A program made the translations under genes and the position numbers. Below the pieces are notes generated by a model that saw nothing but the letters and a program-made list of their open reading frames with translations, searched no databases and had not been told where the DNA came from. 57,404 nucleotides of DNA from a virus: positions 1 to 57,404 of the IMG/VR virus record IMGVR_UViG_3300001242_000028; one strand, written 5' to 3'. Shown here in pieces: positions 3,553-53,647 of this stretch (positions are counted from its first letter, which is position 1; every line of letters starts with the position of its first letter).

Positions 3553-4134
3553 TGGTGGACTCGGAGGGAATCGAACCCTCGTCTGTATTAGCTACTCTTA
3601 ACCGTCTACCCGGAATAGACTTATTACGTAAGTCATTCGCCGCATTCCTGGACGGCGGAACCGCCCCGGCTGTTGGTCACCGTGGATAGTAATTGCCAAC
3701 TATCCTGGACATGGTCCTCCACCAACTGGTCTAGCTTATCGGCTCCAAGTATGACCAGTAATACCCCTTCATTCTTCGCTTCATGCCGAACTAGCAGCAT
3801 TAGACTTCTACGAGTCGCAGGACTGTCGCCTCCCACCTCTTCACATTTGCGAGGATTTGCTCTACACATTTCGATTCACGGGCCCGGCCCGATGTAGGCT
3901 TACACAGAAGCCACAGGAATGTAGATTTCCTACCCCATTCCCGGGGATTACTCAATTCTTAAACTCTCAATCGGTTAGCTGAGTTTTGCTCCGATGTTTT
4001 GAGGCTGTTTATCTATTCAGTCCTAAGACTAAGCAGCAGCTTGTAAAGGTGTTTTGGCATTTATATTGTTGGCGTAAGTCGCCACCTGTCCGGGCAAGTT
4101 TACCATCTCTAACACATCGAAACCAGTCGAGCCC
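3553..4134 (-). ncRNA. ssrA: phage-encoded transfer-messenger RNA (tmRNA)
   Basis: Seen: the 5' end GGGCUCG pairs with CGAGUCC before an encoded CCA at 3553-3555 (7 bp, one G-U). It is followed by ACUGGUUUCGAU, the conserved tmRNA D-loop-like segment. The T arm GAGGG-UUCGAUU-CCCUC is canonical. P2 is a perfect 8-bp helix, UGUGUUAG with CUAAUACA. The resume codon GCC (4073-4071) opens the tag ANNINAKTPLQAAA, which ends at TAG 4029-4031. Known role: rescue of stalled ribosomes together with SmpB; no SmpB gene is visible, so the host protein is presumably used. At 582 nt it is about 200 nt longer than typical tmRNAs. The extra length lies between the tag and the 3' half of P2 and is rich in hairpins and possible pseudoknots. 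Confidence 0.93.
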
Positions 4135-4135
4135 A

Positions 4136-4163
4136 TAAAAGACCGGGTTCTGCACACCCGGTC
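4136..4163 (-). terminator. terminator-like hairpin abutting the tmRNA 5' end
   Basis: GACCGGGT pairs with ACCCGGTC across a 7-nt loop and is followed by UUUUAU, then at once by the tmRNA 5' GGGCUCG. It could terminate the upstream transcript or guide 5' processing of tmRNA. No clear separate tmRNA promoter was seen between it and the tmRNA. Confidence 0.6.
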
Positions 4164-4230
4164 TGTGTTTGTTGAAAATACGTAATATTGGTCGTTAGTT
4201 ACCGGATATAAGCCCTCCGGCCGGGCGACG

Positions 4231-5451: not shown

Positions 5452-5508
5452 TAACATTTACTTCTTACTGTAGTATTGTCTTTTATTACTGTATTTCCTT
5501 TTACTTAT

Positions 5509-5544
5509 TAATTACGCCTGGTTTATTTTAACCAGGCGTAATTA
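5509..5544 (-). terminator. 15-bp terminator-like hairpin after the tRNA-like gene
   Basis: TAATTACGCCTGGTT pairs perfectly with AACCAGGCGTAATTA around a 6-nt A-rich loop, 12 nt beyond the 3' CCA of the tRNA-like RNA. It probably ends that transcript. Confidence 0.7.
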
Positions 5545-5556
5545 TAACTTTGTAAG

Positions 5557-5639
5557 TGGTCAAGGGTGCGGGAATTGAACCCGCTATGGCGTCGTCGGAG
5601 CCTAGGCGCGACACTTCCTTACCGTTAGGAGAACCCCTG
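5557..5639 (-). tRNA. tRNA-like RNA with an 11-nt anticodon loop (no anticodon assigned)
   Basis: Seen: acceptor CAGGGGU with ACCCUUG, discriminator A and encoded CCA. D arm UCCU-AACGGUA-AGGA. T arm GCGGG-UUCAAUU-CCCGC. The anticodon stem UGUCG/CGACG is good, but its loop CGCCUAGGCUC has 11 nt instead of 7, and the variable region is 8 nt. It therefore looks like an intact tRNA body that cannot decode normally. Alternatives are a degenerate gene or a tRNA decoy. Confidence 0.7.
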
Positions 5640-5667
5640 ATGTGACCGCCAGTTACGGCGGCTAAGT

Positions 5668-6033: not shown

Positions 6034-6061
6034 TAAAACAACTCCTATCTATTAGTTTAAA

Positions 6062-6342
6062 TACAGAATAGGTAAGATTCGAACTTACTTGGTCATGGGC
6101 TAGGCTACATACAGTTACCTGGATTTAATTCCCTGGTTACACACAAATCATACAGTTAGACCTGGCACCATATGACGGTATCACTGTGTCAATTCACAGA
6201 TAGGTAGAGCTGTCATCGGCCCTGTTATTTCAGGGCACCCATTAGGCCAGCAAATATTCGGAGCGTCACGTATCTCCTTATTCACCGACGCTCACCTTGT
6301 CTTTTCGCGTCTCGTGTTCACCACCACGATTGCTATTCTGTA
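6062..6342 (-). ncRNA. 281-nt structured RNA with tRNA-like ends
   Basis: UACAGAAUAG (6342-6333) pairs perfectly with CUAUUCUGUA (6071-6062). Directly inside the 3' strand is a canonical T arm GUAAG-UUCGAAU-CUUAC, exactly as in tRNA or tmRNA. On the 5' side is a D-arm-like hairpin UCGUG-GUGGUGAA-CACGA. The 190 nt between carry the hairpins GAGCGUC/GACGCUC, GCCCUG/CAGGGC and CUGUG/CACAG. No CCA is encoded and no tag-like ORF was found. It could be a tmRNA relative, a tRNA with a large insert, or a new RNA class. Confidence 0.6.
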
Positions 6343-17859: not shown

Positions 17860-18690
17860 CTAGCCTAATATAATTTCAAAGCCACTATTTTTCATATCGT
17901 CAGCTACTATACTGCGATGGCAGAACAGAACATCTTTCTTAGCGCAAAAACAACCAAAAGCAATCTTCTTACCCTCGCTTAGCCTTAGCTTTAACCGGTT
18001 TAAATACGGCAGCATAACCGGGCCGGTCATTAACTTTTGAAAGCGAACTAGATATTCAGGCCACATTTCGGGCCACTTACCAGCCTCTTTCCAATCCTTA
18101 AACATGTTAAATAACTCTTCATCCGGGCCTAGCTGCGGAATCCATAGAATATCGGAACTGTTAATCTGTTTAATAGTACCAGCAATTTTAATATCAGCAT
18201 CAATTCTTGATAGCTGACTCATATGACATGTAATGAATTTACCCTTACCGGTCATGATATCTCCCTCCCATAGTTCTTTACTCTGAGCCCAAAAGCCTCT
18301 CTTATGCTGGTTCTTCTCTAGATTTGTCTGCATAAGAGTTTTATACCTTTCCTTCCCGTATTTCTTTATTACATTATCCCGTACCTGAACTATCTGCTGA
18401 ATCATGCGCTTAAACTGTGTTATTGGATAGAAGTACATTGGCCAGTAATCCGGTGGAGGTGTCTTACGAACTTCGTAATCGGTGATATGAGGCCCGATAT
18501 TAAAACGATAGTTAAGATGACTCTTCCCTTTATGGTCACTTATCCTTATACTATGAGATACTCCATAATCTAACTTTAGATAAAAGCTATTAGTAGAGTA
18601 ACTCTTATAATACTGTATCTTAAATCCGTGAACTTTAAGTGCATCAATAATCTGTTGCGTAACGTTATTCAAGTTAGCTTCCTTAGCCAT
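17860..18690 (-). CDS. hypothetical protein with DUF488-like C-terminus (276 aa)
   Basis: ATG start. The first 170 residues are unrecognised and rich in aromatic and basic residues. The last 90 include GCFCAKKDVLFCHRSIVADDM, resembling the C-x-C ... CHR end of DUF488-type proteins, where a Cys/His/Arg cluster follows a Rossmann-like sheet. Function of that family is unclear. Confidence 0.65.
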   Translation of the reverse strand: MAKEANLNNVTQQIIDALKVHGFKIQYYKSYSTNSFYLKLDYGVSHSIRISDHKGKSHLNYRFNIGPHITDYEVRKTPPPDYWPMYFYPITQFKRMIQQIVQVRDNVIKKYGKERYKTLMQTNLEKNQHKRGFWAQSKELWEGDIMTGKGKFITCHMSQLSRIDADIKIAGTIKQINSSDILWIPQLGPDEELFNMFKDWKEAGKWPEMWPEYLVRFQKLMTGPVMLPYLNRLKLRLSEGKKIAFGCFCAKKDVLFCHRSIVADDMKNSGFEIILG

Positions 18691-19017: not shown

Positions 19018-21477
19018 TTAACGGTCTTTTAACGACACCGCAACTTGTGCTGTATCTTGTTGCTGTAATCTCATTGCGCGAGCCTCTGCATGTTTATAAC
19101 TTACGAATCTTAAGATAAATGCTGTTTGCTCATTAGTAAGGCCTGCGTCAAAACCAATCTCACCAGGTTTAACGACCTGTATATTAGCGGTTATAGGATG
19201 GCTATCAATGTTACATGTCACTGTAGCAATTATACCATTACTCGCAGGAGTTGTCCAATTGAGCGCCAGATTATCGATACCAGCCTGTCTTGCTGTGCAA
19301 GCATTGTAAGTCCAGTACCATGCCTCTTGGTTTGTGTTAGCCATGATCCTCTCATGACTAGGAGCGGCTACTGCGAATACCTCAGCTATACTAGCTTCTG
19401 CTATCCAGTCGCCCGGCTCGTGTGCTCTAAATTGCCATTCGGTATCCCAACCAGTATCTTCCGGATTATAACCGTCTATATGGCTGTCAAGAATGTTTAC
19501 TTGTTTCTTGGGGTCTACCCATCTGTATGGCTCGAAGTTTACGAATTTCTCACGGATAGGAAGAACTGTGCGATAATCTTCACCAGGTGCTGGAGTTGGT
19601 AAGATTGAGAAACTACCAGGCTCGGGTTTACCTTTAGCTGCAGCTCTCATCTTCATAGTAAACAAGTGATGGTCAAATACGTTTCTATCCTCCCATGCAG
19701 ATACACTAGGTATTTCTGGATAACGAACAGTAATTGGAACCATTCGTTTAGTAGCGGAATCGTAACTACGGGTTGTTGAGAATGGTATATAATTGGTATT
19801 TCCGGTGAGTTTATATAACCAAGCAGCTGGTACTACGCTTAGTTTGCCACTCTCTTCTCCTATAACCAGGACGCTTGGTGGCTCCCAAGCTTGTACTCTT
19901 TGTTCAACTGTGATGTTAAGAGTAGCATCATACTTTTTGATAATCTTACTCTTTTGAGGATGGATTAAGATAGGTTGACCATTATGAAGCATCAAATCTC
20001 CATTGATATCACGGACTGGTACCTTGCTGTAAAGATCGAGCTTTGGTCTGAGTGGTAAGTTGCTAACAATATAAACAAACTCGTCAAGACCTTTAGCCGG
20101 CTGGCGGGCCATAATTGTAGCTTCTTTATCATTTGTGGCAAGTCTTACATTACAGACCTGATACAGTTCTTTATTATTCATACCGATCTCTACCAAGTTC
20201 TTAATAGGTATGATTTCTGAATACTCTACAATATGGACACCCATTTCTCCAGGTAACTGATTGACAGCATTCTGAGAATGCATTTCCATATAGATGTCAA
20301 ACTTAGTACCAACTAAGTCGCGTTCATCATCAACCAGTCGACGAACGATTACTTTACCATTGTTAGTCATACGTACGAGTGTTACAAAACCAAAGCCAGC
20401 ATGTACATAAACATCATCACGTTCGGTAATAGGACACTCTTCACTCTTAGTAAACAGCTCTTCGTTATGACGGCTACTATCTTGAATCGAGGTAGGAGCT
20501 ACACTTCTTATATAATCAAGTATAGGAGTTCCTTCGTAAGATAACTCTTCGATAGGAACTATTCTACGTTTTCTCTTAACACTACCATCACTCTTATAGA
20601 TCGATTCTGTTCCGCTTACACCGATTTGATCGTCTTTCATCTGAACGATTTTGTAAGCCTCGAAGATGAACATATTAGGATGCTCAAGCACAAGACCTCT
20701 AAGGTTGGTGCGGTTACGATATCCACCTTTAGTCTCTGAATACATTTTAGGGGCCGGATTGTTACCCCATTCGAGTGGCGGTAATTCATCAAGAACGTTA
20801 CCTTTCCAGGTGCCAAGGCTATCTAGGTGAGCCATGTAACGTCTGTGTAAGTAGTTATCAGTTAAGACCGGATCGCAATACTTAGGCAAATCTATATAGG
20901 TAACTTTAGGAGTAGCAATTGGATTTAGCTTATGATAATTCGTTACGATAGGCGCATTAGTCTCTGCTTCTTTCTTAGCCTCTGCTGCTTTACGTTCAGC
21001 CTCTTTCTTAAGTAAGACTGTATTTAAAGCATAACGAGCTTTATTCAAACAAGTATGAGCTACTAATATATCAAATGTATCTCCGGTACCCATACTATCT
21101 TCCATCAGAATATAGTCGTGTTCGGATATTACACCAGCGTATTGAGCTTGCTGGATTTCTTTCTTAATACGGTGTTCGAGCTTAGAGTAAGCACCTTCTT
21201 GCATCCATTTCTCTAAATGCTCAGGGTTCTCAATAATTCTAGAGCTGCGTAACAGGCTGCAACAAGCGCCATCTTTAGCCCAGGTGTCAACCGGTAAATC
21301 CTCGGGAAAGAACGGACGTACTTTAATCCAATTCTCGTCTACCCGACGGTTTGTGGTATACACAGAGTGATTACTGTTTAACACGATTGAAATACCTTCC
21401 GTGTCTTTTCTGTTTCTTTCTTCATCGGTTCTCTCTATTATAACGCCGGAACCTCTTCTTCTACTACTAAGTGCCAT
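19018..21477 (-). CDS. large unknown protein (819 aa)
   Basis: ATG behind AAAAGGAGGACTTTAAA. The longest gene of the leftward half. The N-terminal 150 residues include a charged helix near 155-172 (KKEAERKAAEAKKEAE). The middle is beta-rich with few cysteines, and the last 100 residues contain a short Ig-like strand pattern (TWTTPASNGIIATVTCNID). No catalytic motif, Walker box or signal peptide was seen. It could be a virion-associated or replication scaffold protein; nothing supports a specific role. Confidence 0.8.
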   Translation of the reverse strand: MALSSRRRGSGVIIERTDEERNRKDTEGISIVLNSNHSVYTTNRRVDENWIKVRPFFPEDLPVDTWAKDGACCSLLRSSRIIENPEHLEKWMQEGAYSKLEHRIKKEIQQAQYAGVISEHDYILMEDSMGTGDTFDILVAHTCLNKARYALNTVLLKKEAERKAAEAKKEAETNAPIVTNYHKLNPIATPKVTYIDLPKYCDPVLTDNYLHRRYMAHLDSLGTWKGNVLDELPPLEWGNNPAPKMYSETKGGYRNRTNLRGLVLEHPNMFIFEAYKIVQMKDDQIGVSGTESIYKSDGSVKRKRRIVPIEELSYEGTPILDYIRSVAPTSIQDSSRHNEELFTKSEECPITERDDVYVHAGFGFVTLVRMTNNGKVIVRRLVDDERDLVGTKFDIYMEMHSQNAVNQLPGEMGVHIVEYSEIIPIKNLVEIGMNNKELYQVCNVRLATNDKEATIMARQPAKGLDEFVYIVSNLPLRPKLDLYSKVPVRDINGDLMLHNGQPILIHPQKSKIIKKYDATLNITVEQRVQAWEPPSVLVIGEESGKLSVVPAAWLYKLTGNTNYIPFSTTRSYDSATKRMVPITVRYPEIPSVSAWEDRNVFDHHLFTMKMRAAAKGKPEPGSFSILPTPAPGEDYRTVLPIREKFVNFEPYRWVDPKKQVNILDSHIDGYNPEDTGWDTEWQFRAHEPGDWIAEASIAEVFAVAAPSHERIMANTNQEAWYWTYNACTARQAGIDNLALNWTTPASNGIIATVTCNIDSHPITANIQVVKPGEIGFDAGLTNEQTAFILRFVSYKHAEARAMRLQQQDTAQVAVSLKDR

Positions 21478-22455: not shown

Positions 22456-24129
22456 TTAGAAGTTGTTAGGATTGACAACGAGAATCTTAGGTTGAAAGTT
22501 CTTATCCTCTTTCCATCTCTTAACAGCTGTCAAGAGTGTATTAGCTGTACCACCCTTGGTCTTTGGATCCATTAGCTGAGCGATTTGCTCGATAGCATAT
22601 AACCCGGGTTGTAAACCTGAATATATGGCAATAATCATACCGACATTCGGAAGAACGGGTAACGTACGCACCATACACTCATTACGATAGAAGAGTTTCT
22701 TAGCTGCATCAATGCGCTGCTCTTTATCATCTTTACCAACAGGGTCAGGACTACATATTACTGTCTCACCTGGATGGTTTAATGCGCTATCAAGAACTGC
22801 TTTCCATTGATACTTAAGTCTATCCGGCGCACATGGATACGGGATGTAGTTCCAAAGCTGCAGGTTATACTCCGGATGCAAATGACTCACATCAAGTACA
22901 GCTCTGGTAAATAACAAATCTCCGCCAGCTGCTATTCCCTCTATGAATATCCGGGTACCATTCTCCATAGCCATCTTATTAACAACTGTGGATAAGTATG
23001 TGATTAACTTTTGATTACGAGAATCTCCAAAGTTCCAGCCGGCTTTCCCATTAATACCATTCGGGCGGTGACCGGTAACCATACATGTGAGAATATCACT
23101 ACATCCCTCTTTGATAGTTCTATTTAACATATATACAGGAGTAGCACCCGGCTCCGGTGTAGGATTCTTAAATAAGTAATTAAGATTGAATAATTGATCA
23201 ATCTCTTGATATGCTGGTTTAGCCATTATTGGATTAAGGCCATTCTTAGCCATGAATGCAATTACATCTGCCTGGCAGTTCGTACTCTTACCACGGAACA
23301 TATCCGTAAAAGTATTAAATTGACGAGCGTATTGTAATAAATCTGGATTCTCAAGGAAATACCGAGTCCAAAGATACCAGTACCACGGTGTAAGATATTC
23401 AGGCCCAAACCTCTTACCATTAAGACTTACGGCCACTACCGGCCGGCCCTTGGCATTTCTCCAATCGGTCGGGCCCTCATTTGGGTCATCGGTAAAACGT
23501 TTAGCCTCTTGATAGAGCATCTCTATCTTATTGCCAAGCGCATTTACATGTGCGCCAAATGCGCTGAACCGATTATCTCCTTGAGAGCTACATTCAAGAG
23601 TGGTAGTCTGAGTAGTTACTTGGGTACCCGGCTGAGCAGCGGGTTGTGTATTTTGTTGCACAGAGTTACTATAGTGAACAATTACAAATCTATCATCAAG
23701 ATAAGATGGCAATAACTGTTTCAATTCTCCCCAGTTAAGACCTCCATTACCACATCCGGGAACCGGTAGGTATATAGGCCCGGGCCAAGCTTGGGAATCA
23801 GCAAGTGCTTTTAACTCAGCAGCCGATTTAGTAACCAGTGCAACAGTAGAGTTGTCGCGCCAATGTGCCTTAGTGGGGAAGCTAACAACAGTATAACTTA
23901 TACTCGGATCGTCTATTGGTACTAACGAACCGAGACTGTATACATGGTTACCGTTTGCTTTAACTAGTTGACCAAGTTTTTCCGCCATAGTGGGAAACTT
24001 ATTAGCAAAGTTAAGAGCAACTCCCTTACCCATAACCAAGGCGCCGTCCTTCTTAACGACGCCATTAGTGGTAACACAGATAATACCGTAACGACCAATT
24101 TCAAATATATCACCGGTTACTTCGCGCAT
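22456..24129 (-). CDS. macro domain - unknown domain - SLOG-like fusion protein (557 aa)
   Basis: ATG behind GGAGGGATACCAA. Residues 1-155 look like a macro domain: NGVVKKDGALVMGKGVALNFANKFP at the start and PVPGCGNGGLNW near 122-133 match its ADP-ribose binding loops. Residues 175-225 are a Gln/Thr linker and spacer. Residues 225-330 (WYLWTRYFLENPDLLQYAR ... FRGKSTNCQADVI) are a separate conserved-looking domain. From about 355, CMVTGHRPNG then FIEGIAAGGDLLFTRAVLD fits a SLOG/YpsA (DUF1273)-type Rossmann fold. Known: macro and SLOG folds bind NAD-derived nucleotides. A role in NAD or ADP-ribose-based counter-defence is inference. Confidence 0.75.
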   Translation of the reverse strand: MREVTGDIFEIGRYGIICVTTNGVVKKDGALVMGKGVALNFANKFPTMAEKLGQLVKANGNHVYSLGSLVPIDDPSISYTVVSFPTKAHWRDNSTVALVTKSAAELKALADSQAWPGPIYLPVPGCGNGGLNWGELKQLLPSYLDDRFVIVHYSNSVQQNTQPAAQPGTQVTTQTTTLECSSQGDNRFSAFGAHVNALGNKIEMLYQEAKRFTDDPNEGPTDWRNAKGRPVVAVSLNGKRFGPEYLTPWYWYLWTRYFLENPDLLQYARQFNTFTDMFRGKSTNCQADVIAFMAKNGLNPIMAKPAYQEIDQLFNLNYLFKNPTPEPGATPVYMLNRTIKEGCSDILTCMVTGHRPNGINGKAGWNFGDSRNQKLITYLSTVVNKMAMENGTRIFIEGIAAGGDLLFTRAVLDVSHLHPEYNLQLWNYIPYPCAPDRLKYQWKAVLDSALNHPGETVICSPDPVGKDDKEQRIDAAKKLFYRNECMVRTLPVLPNVGMIIAIYSGLQPGLYAIEQIAQLMDPKTKGGTANTLLTAVKRWKEDKNFQPKILVVNPNNF

Positions 24130-43798: not shown

Positions 43799-45490
43799 AT
43801 GGCAACAATAATAGCGCCGCCCCAATCTACATTAACTCCTGAAGAGACAGCCGAACTACAAGTTATCATGGATCCGGTTCAATGGTCTGATATCTACTTA
43901 AACTGGAAACCATTTGATTATCAGCCCGACCTAATGTATGGACTTCGTGATAATAAGAGGGTCGTATTTAGACTAGGGCGCAGACTAGGAAAAACAGAAA
44001 TACTTTGTATTATGATTCTATGGTATGCCTTTACACAGTATAACAGATCGCCAACTCTTCGCGAAGATGAGGACAAGTATAAGATTCTGATAATATGTCC
44101 TTTCGAAGAGCAGGTAGATCTTATCTTCGAGCGTCTTAATCAATTGATCGATGCATCTCCTGTGTTATCTAGTGTTAAACGGCGAGTCCATCACAGAATC
44201 GAGTTTTGGAATGGTACCGCTATTAAAGGTATGACAGCCGGTTCTAAGTCAAATACAGGAGCCGCTGGTACCAGAGGTCAGTATGCAGACGTTCTTGTAA
44301 CGGACGAAGTAGATTACATGGCTGATAACGATATTACTAATATCATCAATATTGCTAACGAAGATCCTGCACGTATTAAGATATTTGCAGCTTCGACTCC
44401 TACTGGTAAGAGGGGGCCATTCTATCGGTGGTGTACTGGTAAGATTAAAGGTTGGAAAGCATTCCATTTACCTAGTACCGTTAATAAGCGACTCCTTGAG
44501 ATGAACCCAGATACGGGTCAAAGTTATCTTGAAGATCTAAAAGAAGAACTTACCGATTTACGTTATCTGCAAGAGGTTATGGCTGAGTTCGGTGAAGAAC
44601 AAGCTGGTGTATACCAAAAACGCTTTATCGACCTGGCTCTTAAGCTTGGTAAGATATTCAATCTTAAGTATTATGATGAACGTAACTTGCCGCCAGCTCC
44701 CGCCGGGCCAAGAATTCTTGGAGTGGACTGGGATAAGGTTCAGGCGACTCCAAATTTAGTAGGTCTTGAGTTCGATACGACACTTGGGATGTTTAAGGTT
44801 ATCTTTAGAAAAGAAATACCAAGACATGAATTTACCCTAACCTTAGGTGTTAATGCTATTATCAATTCTGACAAACTGTTTAGGTGGGACTGGATTTTTG
44901 TTGACCGTGGTATGGGTGAGATGCAGGTAGAGCAATTACACTTACATGGTATTCGTACTGGTAATAAAGAGTTTTCTAAGAAAGTTATTGGAGTATCCTT
45001 CTCTGAAAAGGTTAAGGTACGAGATCCTCATACCAGAAAGGTTGTTAAGAAACCGGTTAAGCCTTTTATGGTTAACTACTCAGTTAACCAGTTTGAGAAA
45101 CAGCATATAGCTTTCCCTTGGGATAGGAAACTAGTAGACCAACTTGAAAATTATTATATTAAGAATGTATCTCCAAACGGTATGCCAACGTATACCGATG
45201 AGAATGAACATATCGTAGACGCTTTGAATTTATGTTTCCTTGGCTTTGCCTTGAAATATGACGACATGATTAAACAAAAGGCTGGTTGGGGATTTAAGAA
45301 AATTGATAATCTTGATACAAGGAATGGCGACATTAAAGATCGTACTACTATGTTGGAGAAAGGGTATAAAGAAAGTTGTAACCCTAATATAGATCCTACA
45401 AGAGACATAGAGATTAGAAAGTTAAGATCTCGGGCTACTAAGGGTAGGGGAGGTTGGTCAAGTATTCCCAGTCGGAGTAACCTAAGGTAA
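43799..45490 (+). CDS. terL: terminase large subunit
   Basis: Packages DNA into the prohead: ATPase motor and nuclease. 563 aa. Seen: Walker A RLGRRLGKT at 58-66, Walker B VLVTDE at 165-170, coupling motif AASTPTG at 197-203. The nuclease domain has GVDWDK near 308, a FVDRG-M-GE segment near 366, and an acidic ENEHIVDAL at about 470, the expected metal ligands. Basic C-terminus. Starts just after the previous stop. Confidence 0.95.
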   Translation: MATIIAPPQSTLTPEETAELQVIMDPVQWSDIYLNWKPFDYQPDLMYGLRDNKRVVFRLGRRLGKTEILCIMILWYAFTQYNRSPTLREDEDKYKILIICPFEEQVDLIFERLNQLIDASPVLSSVKRRVHHRIEFWNGTAIKGMTAGSKSNTGAAGTRGQYADVLVTDEVDYMADNDITNIINIANEDPARIKIFAASTPTGKRGPFYRWCTGKIKGWKAFHLPSTVNKRLLEMNPDTGQSYLEDLKEELTDLRYLQEVMAEFGEEQAGVYQKRFIDLALKLGKIFNLKYYDERNLPPAPAGPRILGVDWDKVQATPNLVGLEFDTTLGMFKVIFRKEIPRHEFTLTLGVNAIINSDKLFRWDWIFVDRGMGEMQVEQLHLHGIRTGNKEFSKKVIGVSFSEKVKVRDPHTRKVVKKPVKPFMVNYSVNQFEKQHIAFPWDRKLVDQLENYYIKNVSPNGMPTYTDENEHIVDALNLCFLGFALKYDDMIKQKAGWGFKKIDNLDTRNGDIKDRTTMLEKGYKESCNPNIDPTRDIEIRKLRSRATKGRGGWSSIPSRSNLR

Positions 45491-51745: not shown

Positions 51746-53647
51746 GTGGCGTTAATGGGTAAGCTGGCTATAATGGCGAACGCATTAAAAAACCACCCCT
51801 TGTTTACTGCTACTGTCTCGCCAGTTACAACTTTAGAAGTTCCTGAAGTTAAAGAAGCCGGAGCTAAACGAGATCCGTATCAATCGGTAGTTAAGAAGGT
51901 AGGCTTATCAGACGACCCTACCAACAGAGACTACTCCAGTCCAAGTTATACAGGGTCGACTATGACCCTCGATAAGATCGAGGAAGCTTGGAACAAGGAG
52001 TCTTATGTAAGAAGGTCTGTCAGTAAGTATACGGAGTTGATGTTTAAAGCCGGTTGGGATCTTGTTGGTAAAAACCCTAGCGCCGTACAATACCTTAAGA
52101 CAAGGTTCGCCTTTATGGCGGAATGTACACAACAACCAACCGATATATGGCTTCTAGAGCAATCCGAGGACTTGGTTAAGTATTCAAACGTAGTTATGGC
52201 TAAACTGCGTAAAGGCGAAGTTCAGTGGCCAAAAGGGATTAAAGTACAAGGTATCGGAGGACGAGATCCAATCCTTGGTTATTCTTGTCTTCCGGTAAAA
52301 GATATGCAAGTAAAACGGGATAAAGTCGGGACTGTTAAGGGTTGGCAGCAAGATGCGGGTGATAAGCCTGTTAAGTTCAAAGCAGAAGATATTGTACACA
52401 TTTACTATCAAAGAGAGCGTGGTAAGATTTTCGGTACTCCGTCTCTCGTTCCTGTCTTAGATGACATTATCAGTCTGCGGCAAGCTGAAGAAAATGTATT
52501 AAAACTTATCTATAGAAACCTGTTCCCATTTTTACACTATAAGATTGGTACAGAAGGTGAACATGGACAGCCGGGCGATCAAGATGATGTTGATAAACTT
52601 ACCGACGAAGTCGAGAATATGGAATTAGAGGGCGGATTGGTTACAACAGAACGTGTTAATATCGAACCGGTCGCCCTAGATCAAGTTATAGATGCCTATA
52701 GTTATCTACTATACTTTGAACGTCGTGTATTTACCGGTCTTGGAGTTTCAGAATCTCAAATGGGGCGTGGTGCTACAAGTGCCAGGGCTACAGCTGAGAA
52801 CATGACAGACCAAATTATCGATAGTGTCAAAGCCTTACAAAGAATACAGGAGGCATTTCTTAACGAGTTGGTTATTAAAGAATTACTTCTCGAAGGTGGA
52901 TTCGATCCATTATTAAATCCGAATGACGATGTACGGTTCTTGTTTAAGGAAATTGATGTGGATATGAAAATCAAAAAAGAAAACCACGCCATATTCCAAT
53001 ACGAGCATAATGCTATAACTGAAGATGAAATGCGCATACTTCTTGGACGAGATCCTGTTACCGATCGTGGACTTATGTTCTGTAACGTAGTTACTATTCC
53101 GGTAGCTCAGGCTACGGCAGATGCGAAAGCAGAAGCCTCTCCAGCCGGTAATTCAGGTGGTGGTAAACCGGCAGCTACTACTAATAAAGTTAAACCAACT
53201 AATAAAGCTAAGACAAAGACAAAAGCCGGTAGTGTACCTGACTTTTCCGAGTTTGCCGCTTTAAATATTAAATACGAGTTTAGCGGTCTTAGGAAGGACG
53301 TAATGACTGTAGTCGGTCTTTATCACGCCGGAGAGACGAGCAATAAAGTCTCCATGGAACTGGCCGGTTGTCTAGCACAGACTAAGAAGAATTTCATGTA
53401 TACTATAGAATCATATCTTGGCCCGGATATTAAATTCAAAGCTGAGAATTACTTTGATAATCTTCTTCATCGTCTAAATACAATGGTTATTGAATCTCTA
53501 AGACAAATAGAATCTCCTATGAATTGCTTAAACACTATAGCAAGTTTCTTCGACCTTTATGATAGTTCTGATTGGGATGCTTTTGTAGCATGGTTAGTCG
53601 GAGATGACGATTTAGAATCAATTACTAAATCAAATGAAGAAGGGTAG
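51746..53647 (+). CDS. portal protein
   Basis: 633 aa from GTG, SD AGGTGG. Forms the dodecameric DNA channel and binds terminase. Seen: VRRSVSKYTELMFKAGWDLVG, the portal stem-like helices (QAEENVLKLIYRNLFPFL, ATAENMTDQIIDSVKAL), a GVSESQMG turn, and an FKAEDIVHIYYQRERGKIFGTPSL wing motif near 210, typical of large-phage portals. The C-terminal 150 residues, after a Thr/Lys linker, are an extra helical domain. Position before the protease/scaffold and capsid genes fits. Confidence 0.85.
   Translation: MALMGKLAIMANALKNHPLFTATVSPVTTLEVPEVKEAGAKRDPYQSVVKKVGLSDDPTNRDYSSPSYTGSTMTLDKIEEAWNKESYVRRSVSKYTELMFKAGWDLVGKNPSAVQYLKTRFAFMAECTQQPTDIWLLEQSEDLVKYSNVVMAKLRKGEVQWPKGIKVQGIGGRDPILGYSCLPVKDMQVKRDKVGTVKGWQQDAGDKPVKFKAEDIVHIYYQRERGKIFGTPSLVPVLDDIISLRQAEENVLKLIYRNLFPFLHYKIGTEGEHGQPGDQDDVDKLTDEVENMELEGGLVTTERVNIEPVALDQVIDAYSYLLYFERRVFTGLGVSESQMGRGATSARATAENMTDQIIDSVKALQRIQEAFLNELVIKELLLEGGFDPLLNPNDDVRFLFKEIDVDMKIKKENHAIFQYEHNAITEDEMRILLGRDPVTDRGLMFCNVVTIPVAQATADAKAEASPAGNSGGGKPAATTNKVKPTNKAKTKTKAGSVPDFSEFAALNIKYEFSGLRKDVMTVVGLYHAGETSNKVSMELAGCLAQTKKNFMYTIESYLGPDIKFKAENYFDNLLHRLNTMVIESLRQIESPMNCLNTIASFFDLYDSSDWDAFVAWLVGDDDLESITKSNEEG

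Follow-up and report, generated by a model that had tools for sequence, protein, structure and literature searches.

The standard one-piece tmRNA (Rfam family RF00023) combines a tRNA-like domain containing the G3:U70 pair, a P2 helix, a resume signal, a tag reading frame with its stop codon, pseudoknots PK2 to PK4 and an encoded CCA. RNAs with such parts are charged with alanine, bind SmpB and EF-Tu, enter stalled ribosomes and add the tag. All of these parts are shared by the gene described here, which differs from the standard form in its length (582 nt rather than about 325-405 nt), in a block of about 193 nt between PK2 and PK3, and in a hairpin taking the place of PK1. The gene lies in a stretch of 57,404 nt from a virus record, referred to below as the window.

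A phage tmRNA gene as such is not novel. Complete ssrA genes on phage genomes have been published for the mycobacteriophage Bxz1 group and Wildcat, for Bacillus phage G and for Pelagibacter/Methylophilales phages. In one published survey, tmRNA was found in 402 of 18,146 phage genomes (2.3%) by ARAGORN-based detection (PMC9004378), and a 2025 database holds 79 unique phage tmRNA sequences (PMC11915505). An earlier reading of the window from its letters alone, hereafter the sequence-only reading, had called phage tmRNAs known but rare, which fits the published share, though ARAGORN misses the present gene.

The tmRNAs of phage G and the Bxz1 group are likened to that of the window by description, not by sequence, and the Melnitz tmRNA, unlike it, is two-piece and permuted. 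The group I intron form of tmRNA has in common with the window an oversized gene with an inserted block, but its introns lie in the T-loop and average about 290-410 nt, whereas the T-loop in the window is intact and no intron core was detected. The RNA of mycobacteriophage DS6A is likewise a phage-encoded tmRNA-type RNA, limited to the tRNA-like domain and lacking the tag and the pseudoknots, both of which are present in the window. In the portions of the literature available, no description was found of a standard-form tmRNA with a block of about 193 nt between PK2 and PK3; the 2025 database may include a long standard form.

A complete one-piece tmRNA gene

A scan of the window against all 4,227 Rfam families returned a match to RF00023 that covers the model end to end, at 59.2 bits (E 1.1e-20) against a gathering cut-off of 47 bits. 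By this model, the matched interval holds an entire tmRNA in one piece (Table 1). The sequence-only reading had placed a full tmRNA at identical coordinates and had proposed a covariance model as the check, and the tRNA-like ends, 8-bp P2, resume codon, tag with stop and encoded CCA that it listed could each be located, all on one strand, which it had left unnamed and which is the minus strand. It was silent on the excess length of about 190 nt and on the simple hairpin at the PK1 site. A permuted two-piece tmRNA was rejected, as the gene order runs 5' to 3' and the permuted family RF04321 gave two partial matches at the two ends of the gene with only 20-21 bits against a cut-off of 47.

ARAGORN, which had also been proposed as a check, gave a divided answer: no tmRNA gene was called in the intact window, while deletion of the extra block led to the call of a 389-nt tmRNA with the tag AKTPLQAAA, so that the intact gene is missed because of its length alone. 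The call was regained once about 175 nt or more had been deleted at any mid-gene site, with shortened versions of the gene being called at about 407 nt and lost by 427 nt; the deletion test therefore shows the length limit of the program and not the exact borders of the block. Since the gene is lost between these lengths, the ARAGORN-based frequency of tmRNA among phages can only be a minimum, and longer tmRNA forms may be systematically overlooked by this program.

The acceptor stem is paired at 7/7 positions, carries the alanine-identity pair G3:U70 and is followed by the discriminator A73, completing with the T-arm, the D-loop and CCA the tRNA-like domain of a standard tmRNA. The P2 helix, paired at 8/8 positions and joined by CCCGGA/UCCGGG, has the extent of the long P2 of that form. 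When nine phage tmRNAs from IMG/VR are compared, substitutions at acceptor pairs 4-6 and at T-stem pairs 1, 2 and 4 preserve the pairing, and G3:U70 is invariant; in this comparison P2 was misplaced for the window and for one other member (L061), and the pairing count for P2 in the window comes from separate inspection.

Because ssrA is a frequent integration site of phages, which then carry its 3' end, a dead ssrA copy or the remnant of a prophage attachment site needs to be considered. This explanation is extremely unlikely, as neither end of the gene is truncated, its reading frame and pairing are intact, the tRNA-like stems covary, and the kinship of the phage is with large phages bearing a tRNA cluster.

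The spacing AUAA-AU-GCC is that of the known resume signal, for which AUAG or AUAA is the preferred tetramer before the resume codon in one study (PMC4236655). The resume signal opens a tag frame with the hydrophobic/alanine end and the stop codon of a standard tmRNA, and the tags of the other phage tmRNAs met here end in QAAA or LAAA. Upstream of the tag, PK1, which is usual but not essential, is absent, and its place is taken by a 5-bp hairpin; this was not counted as excluding a standard tmRNA because a hairpin suffices in published work. In that work (PMC3968760, PMC4236655), a hairpin can stand in for PK1, and exchange or replacement of PK2-PK4 costs little function, which makes it likely that an expanded ring is tolerated. 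The total energy of PK2, PK3 and PK4, calculated with RNA positions 176-368 deleted, was reached by none of 150 shuffles, in agreement with the post-tag pseudoknots of the standard form, while the individual pairs are predicted and lack covariation support.

Table 1. Positions of the tmRNA gene, its parts and selected neighbouring features in the window.
Feature	Position	Strand	Remarks
Complete one-piece tmRNA (ssrA) gene	3553-4134	-	582 nt; RF00023 model positions 1-374
Acceptor stem, 5' strand	4128-4134	-	GGGCUCG; pairs with 3557-3563; includes G3:U70
D-loop	4117-4127	-	ACUGGUUUCGA; from covariance-model alignment
P2, 5' strand	4109-4116	-	UGUGUUAG; 8/8 pairs with CUAAUACA at 3584-3591
Hairpin replacing PK1	4070-4084	-	UGGCG-ACUUA-CGCCA; 5 bp, 5-nt loop; same form in G013
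AUAA tetramer	4061-4064	-	2 nt 5' of resume codon
Tag frame	4029-4058	-	Resume codon GCC, AKTPLQAAA, stop UAG; same tag from ARAGORN on shortened sequence
Pseudoknot PK2	3961-3995	-	AUCGG/CCGAU with AAACUC/GAGUUU; RNA positions 140-174
Extra block of about 193 nt between PK2 and PK3	3767-3959	-	Ends uncertain by about 10 nt; RNA positions 176-368
Pseudoknot PK3	3704-3759	-	ACUGGUC/GACCAGU with CUUGGA/UCCAGG; RNA positions 376-431
Pseudoknot PK4	3639-3683	-	ACGGUG/CGCCGU with GCCG/CGGC
P2, 3' strand	3584-3591	-	CUAAUACA
T-arm	3564-3580	-	GAGGG-UUCGAUU-CCCUC
Acceptor stem, 3' strand	3553-3563	-	CGAGUCC, discriminator A and encoded CCA
GC-rich hairpin	4140-4164	-	Perfect 9-bp stem ending 6 nt upstream of tmRNA 5' end; terminator-like on the plus strand
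Terminase large subunit	43799-45490
Portal protein	51746-53647

The block between PK2 and PK3

The length of the gene compares with 325-405 nt in 174 bacterial tmRNAs, given as model match spans from two sampled phyla in a survey biased against long forms, in which the same quick search scored the gene of the window at only 26.7 bits. The phage tmRNAs met here span 334-407 nt, leaving aside a differently flagged call of 320 nt (L109), and at 582 nt the present one is half again the usual length. The borders of the block follow from the assignment of PK2 and PK3 and from nothing else.

Searches of the block with Rfam at E 10 gave no meaningful match, the one entry being a chance match of 14 nt (E 6.1) at the border of the searched segment. 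In fold energy the block does not differ from shuffled sequences (z about 0), it holds no more additional pseudoknots than shuffles do, and a closing helix around it (UAAUCCCC/GGGGUAUUA) was rejected at a shuffle p of 0.14. The window, the remaining phage sequence and the relatives contain no second copy, a 20-base piece of the block was not found in the viral collection, and the whole tmRNA gene had no blastn match in 50,697 phage records. For a block with no homologue detected and no structure above chance, a place in a working RNA is unexpected.

We nevertheless consider it probable that the phage encodes a one-piece tmRNA acting in ordinary trans-translation and that the block is a lineage-specific expansion retained in the mature RNA, the parts being read from the sequence and the function inferred from them. 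Alternatively, the block could be removed from a precursor as an unrecognised intron or an RNase-cut intervening sequence, leaving a tmRNA of about 389 nt in one or two pieces. Removal would restore a typical tmRNA size and the standard succession of PK2 and PK3, and insertions occur in tRNA genes of related phages, including one of about 600 nt with an HNH-like frame. Group I introns are known in tmRNA genes, all of them in the T-loop, and the authors of the 2025 database concede that introns elsewhere could have escaped detection (PMC11915505). Even so, we regard removal as unlikely, given that no intron or ribozyme match was obtained even at E 10, that a group I intron would be expected to be longer, and that the pairing of its ends and its fold energy stay at shuffle level. 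The silence of Rfam is a weak argument here, as the split tRNA-Leu gene in one relative (G011) likewise drew no intron match. A group I intron in particular was rejected from the lack of an Rfam match at E 10, the intact T-loop and the absence of core motifs in the block when inspected by eye. We likewise assign a low probability to a reading in which the block, at a novel tmRNA site, excises itself or is cut out by enzymes, or else forms a new functional domain, for instance one that would bias rescue toward the needs of the phage.

An assembly error, i.e., a chimeric join within a normal 389-nt tmRNA, would account for a block without a homologue anywhere searched, and the gene is seen in a single metagenome contig, the overlapping contig stopping short of the tmRNA region. 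We judge this very unlikely, because no misjoin-prone repeat was found in the window or in relatives, the base composition of the block equals that of the tmRNA, and both of its sides join the complete gene exactly between PK2 and PK3.

The phage, its relatives and their tmRNAs

Over its last 4,313 nt, the window matches the beginning of a 137-kb viral contig (G023) at 100% identity. This contig belongs to the same phage and carries eleven tRNA genes; from the overlap, the tailed phage is about 190 kb long and the contig of the window is a fragment. Together with the terminase, the portal protein and the origin of the window in a virus record, this identity bears out the assumption of the sequence-only reading that the DNA is a phage genome. 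By portal and terminase, the nearest isolates are Moorella phage MTATph1 and Bacillus phage vB_BauM_KLEB27-3, which suggests a Bacillota host, and ribosome sites of AAGGAGGTG type fit such a host. Five bacterial contigs found with a gapped tmRNA pattern (L116-L120) had no tmRNA by ARAGORN, and no donor or host was identified from them.

The relatives searched comprised 27 records (found through the portal protein, plus two isolates), several of them fragments, with G023 kept apart. Only one of them, a 213-kb genome with a portal protein 38% identical (G013, IMGVR_UViG_3300024270_000009), has a tmRNA, of 378 nt and 89.5 bits; the search of the remaining long relatives and of related isolates gave none. 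Both are large phages with a tRNA cluster, and both tmRNAs show a hairpin (5 bp, 5-nt loop) at the PK1 site and a tag of nine codons with proline in fourth position, an AAA end and a UAG stop. The G013 tmRNA differs in its length, in having no extra block, in not encoding CCA, and in its tag (ANRPMLAAA). The likeness in hairpin and tag is best read as common descent, judging from the two sequences. Loss of pairing in related phages, which the sequence-only reading had named as evidence against itself, was not seen, as the tRNA-like pairings are kept in G013 with compensatory changes. The locus thus adds a tmRNA of unusual architecture for a lineage of large phages, one relative having a similarly reduced PK1 and a tag of like pattern.

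Weak tmRNA matches in three further records (G006, G009 and W02) were taken as chance; those in G009 (L041) and W02 (L036) are coding sequence and that in G006 is of the same kind. Four viral contigs (L064-L067) share only an 18-nt stretch and have no tmRNA. Additionally, several relatives carry unusual tRNA genes. In G011, a tRNA-Leu gene at 19341-20037 on the plus strand (L039) is interrupted by an insertion of about 600 nt that has an HNH-like reading frame and looks like a group I intron, though Rfam reports none. Oversized tRNA genes were seen in G014 (206593-206703), G006 (68492-68602), G013 (112741-112868 and 113170-113266) and G011 (17863-18000), those of G014 and G006 having in common an extra arm with a compensatory A-T to G-C change. 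A contig of 170,948 bp (G019, L027 and L029; IMGVR_UViG_3300035034_002798) contains the portal region twice, inverted, with mirror-image motif hits, and is probably a palindromic assembly artefact.

Possible working during infection

If the RNA acts as an ordinary tmRNA, it would be processed like a tRNA by host enzymes and charged with alanine. A search that was positive for SmpB in 11 of 14 control genomes gave no SmpB gene for the window, for the available remainder of the phage (G023) or for six related records; the tmRNA would therefore depend on host SmpB. With host EF-Tu, this protein would carry the RNA to ribosomes that have stalled on broken mRNAs in the infected cell, where A-AKTPLQAAA would be added, and the AAA end would mark the product for host proteases. 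The block would remain in the mature RNA as an expansion of the pseudoknot ring, a ring known to tolerate replacement, and the window would offer a natural test of the load of extra RNA that such a ring can carry. The phage may gain by having ribosomes freed from degraded host mRNAs for reuse, or by maintaining rescue if the host tmRNA is lost. The proposal of the sequence-only reading that the phage would control ribosome rescue during infection is plausible.

Alternatively, the RNA might be a decoy: by binding to SmpB or to stalled ribosomes, it would inhibit trans-translation in the host without carrying it out. Two papers describe inhibition of host tmRNA by the DS6A RNA, which consists of little beyond the tRNA-like domain (PMC4131195, PMC11915505), and the block could disturb mRNA-like function. 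A decoy needs no resume signal, tag, stop or downstream pseudoknots, yet all are kept and the G013 tag is alike, and we hold this role to be quite unlikely. Counting against a working tmRNA, besides the unexplained block, the failure to find SmpB in the phage and the finding of a tmRNA in only one relative, is the GC-rich hairpin that abuts its 5' end and makes the transcription route hard to place; on the minus strand, this hairpin is a possible leader or processing signal.

Other elements were observed elsewhere in the window. On the tmRNA strand and upstream of the gene, positions 6061-6339 contain an RNA of about 279 nt with tRNA-like ends, a 10-bp end pairing with AGAATAG/CTATTCT and the T-arm GTAAG-TTCGAAT-CTTAC, for which neither ARAGORN nor Rfam gave a call. 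A tRNA-like element at 5557-5642, also on the minus strand, has an 8-bp acceptor stem, CCA, a good T-arm and an anticodon-arm loop of 11 nt, and is followed by a strong terminator-like hairpin (5500-5560). Finally, the minus-strand frame at 22456-24129 encodes a protein matching NADAR-DarT1 (29 bits, cut-off 27) and phage phosphatase families, a possible counter-defence protein by these matches.
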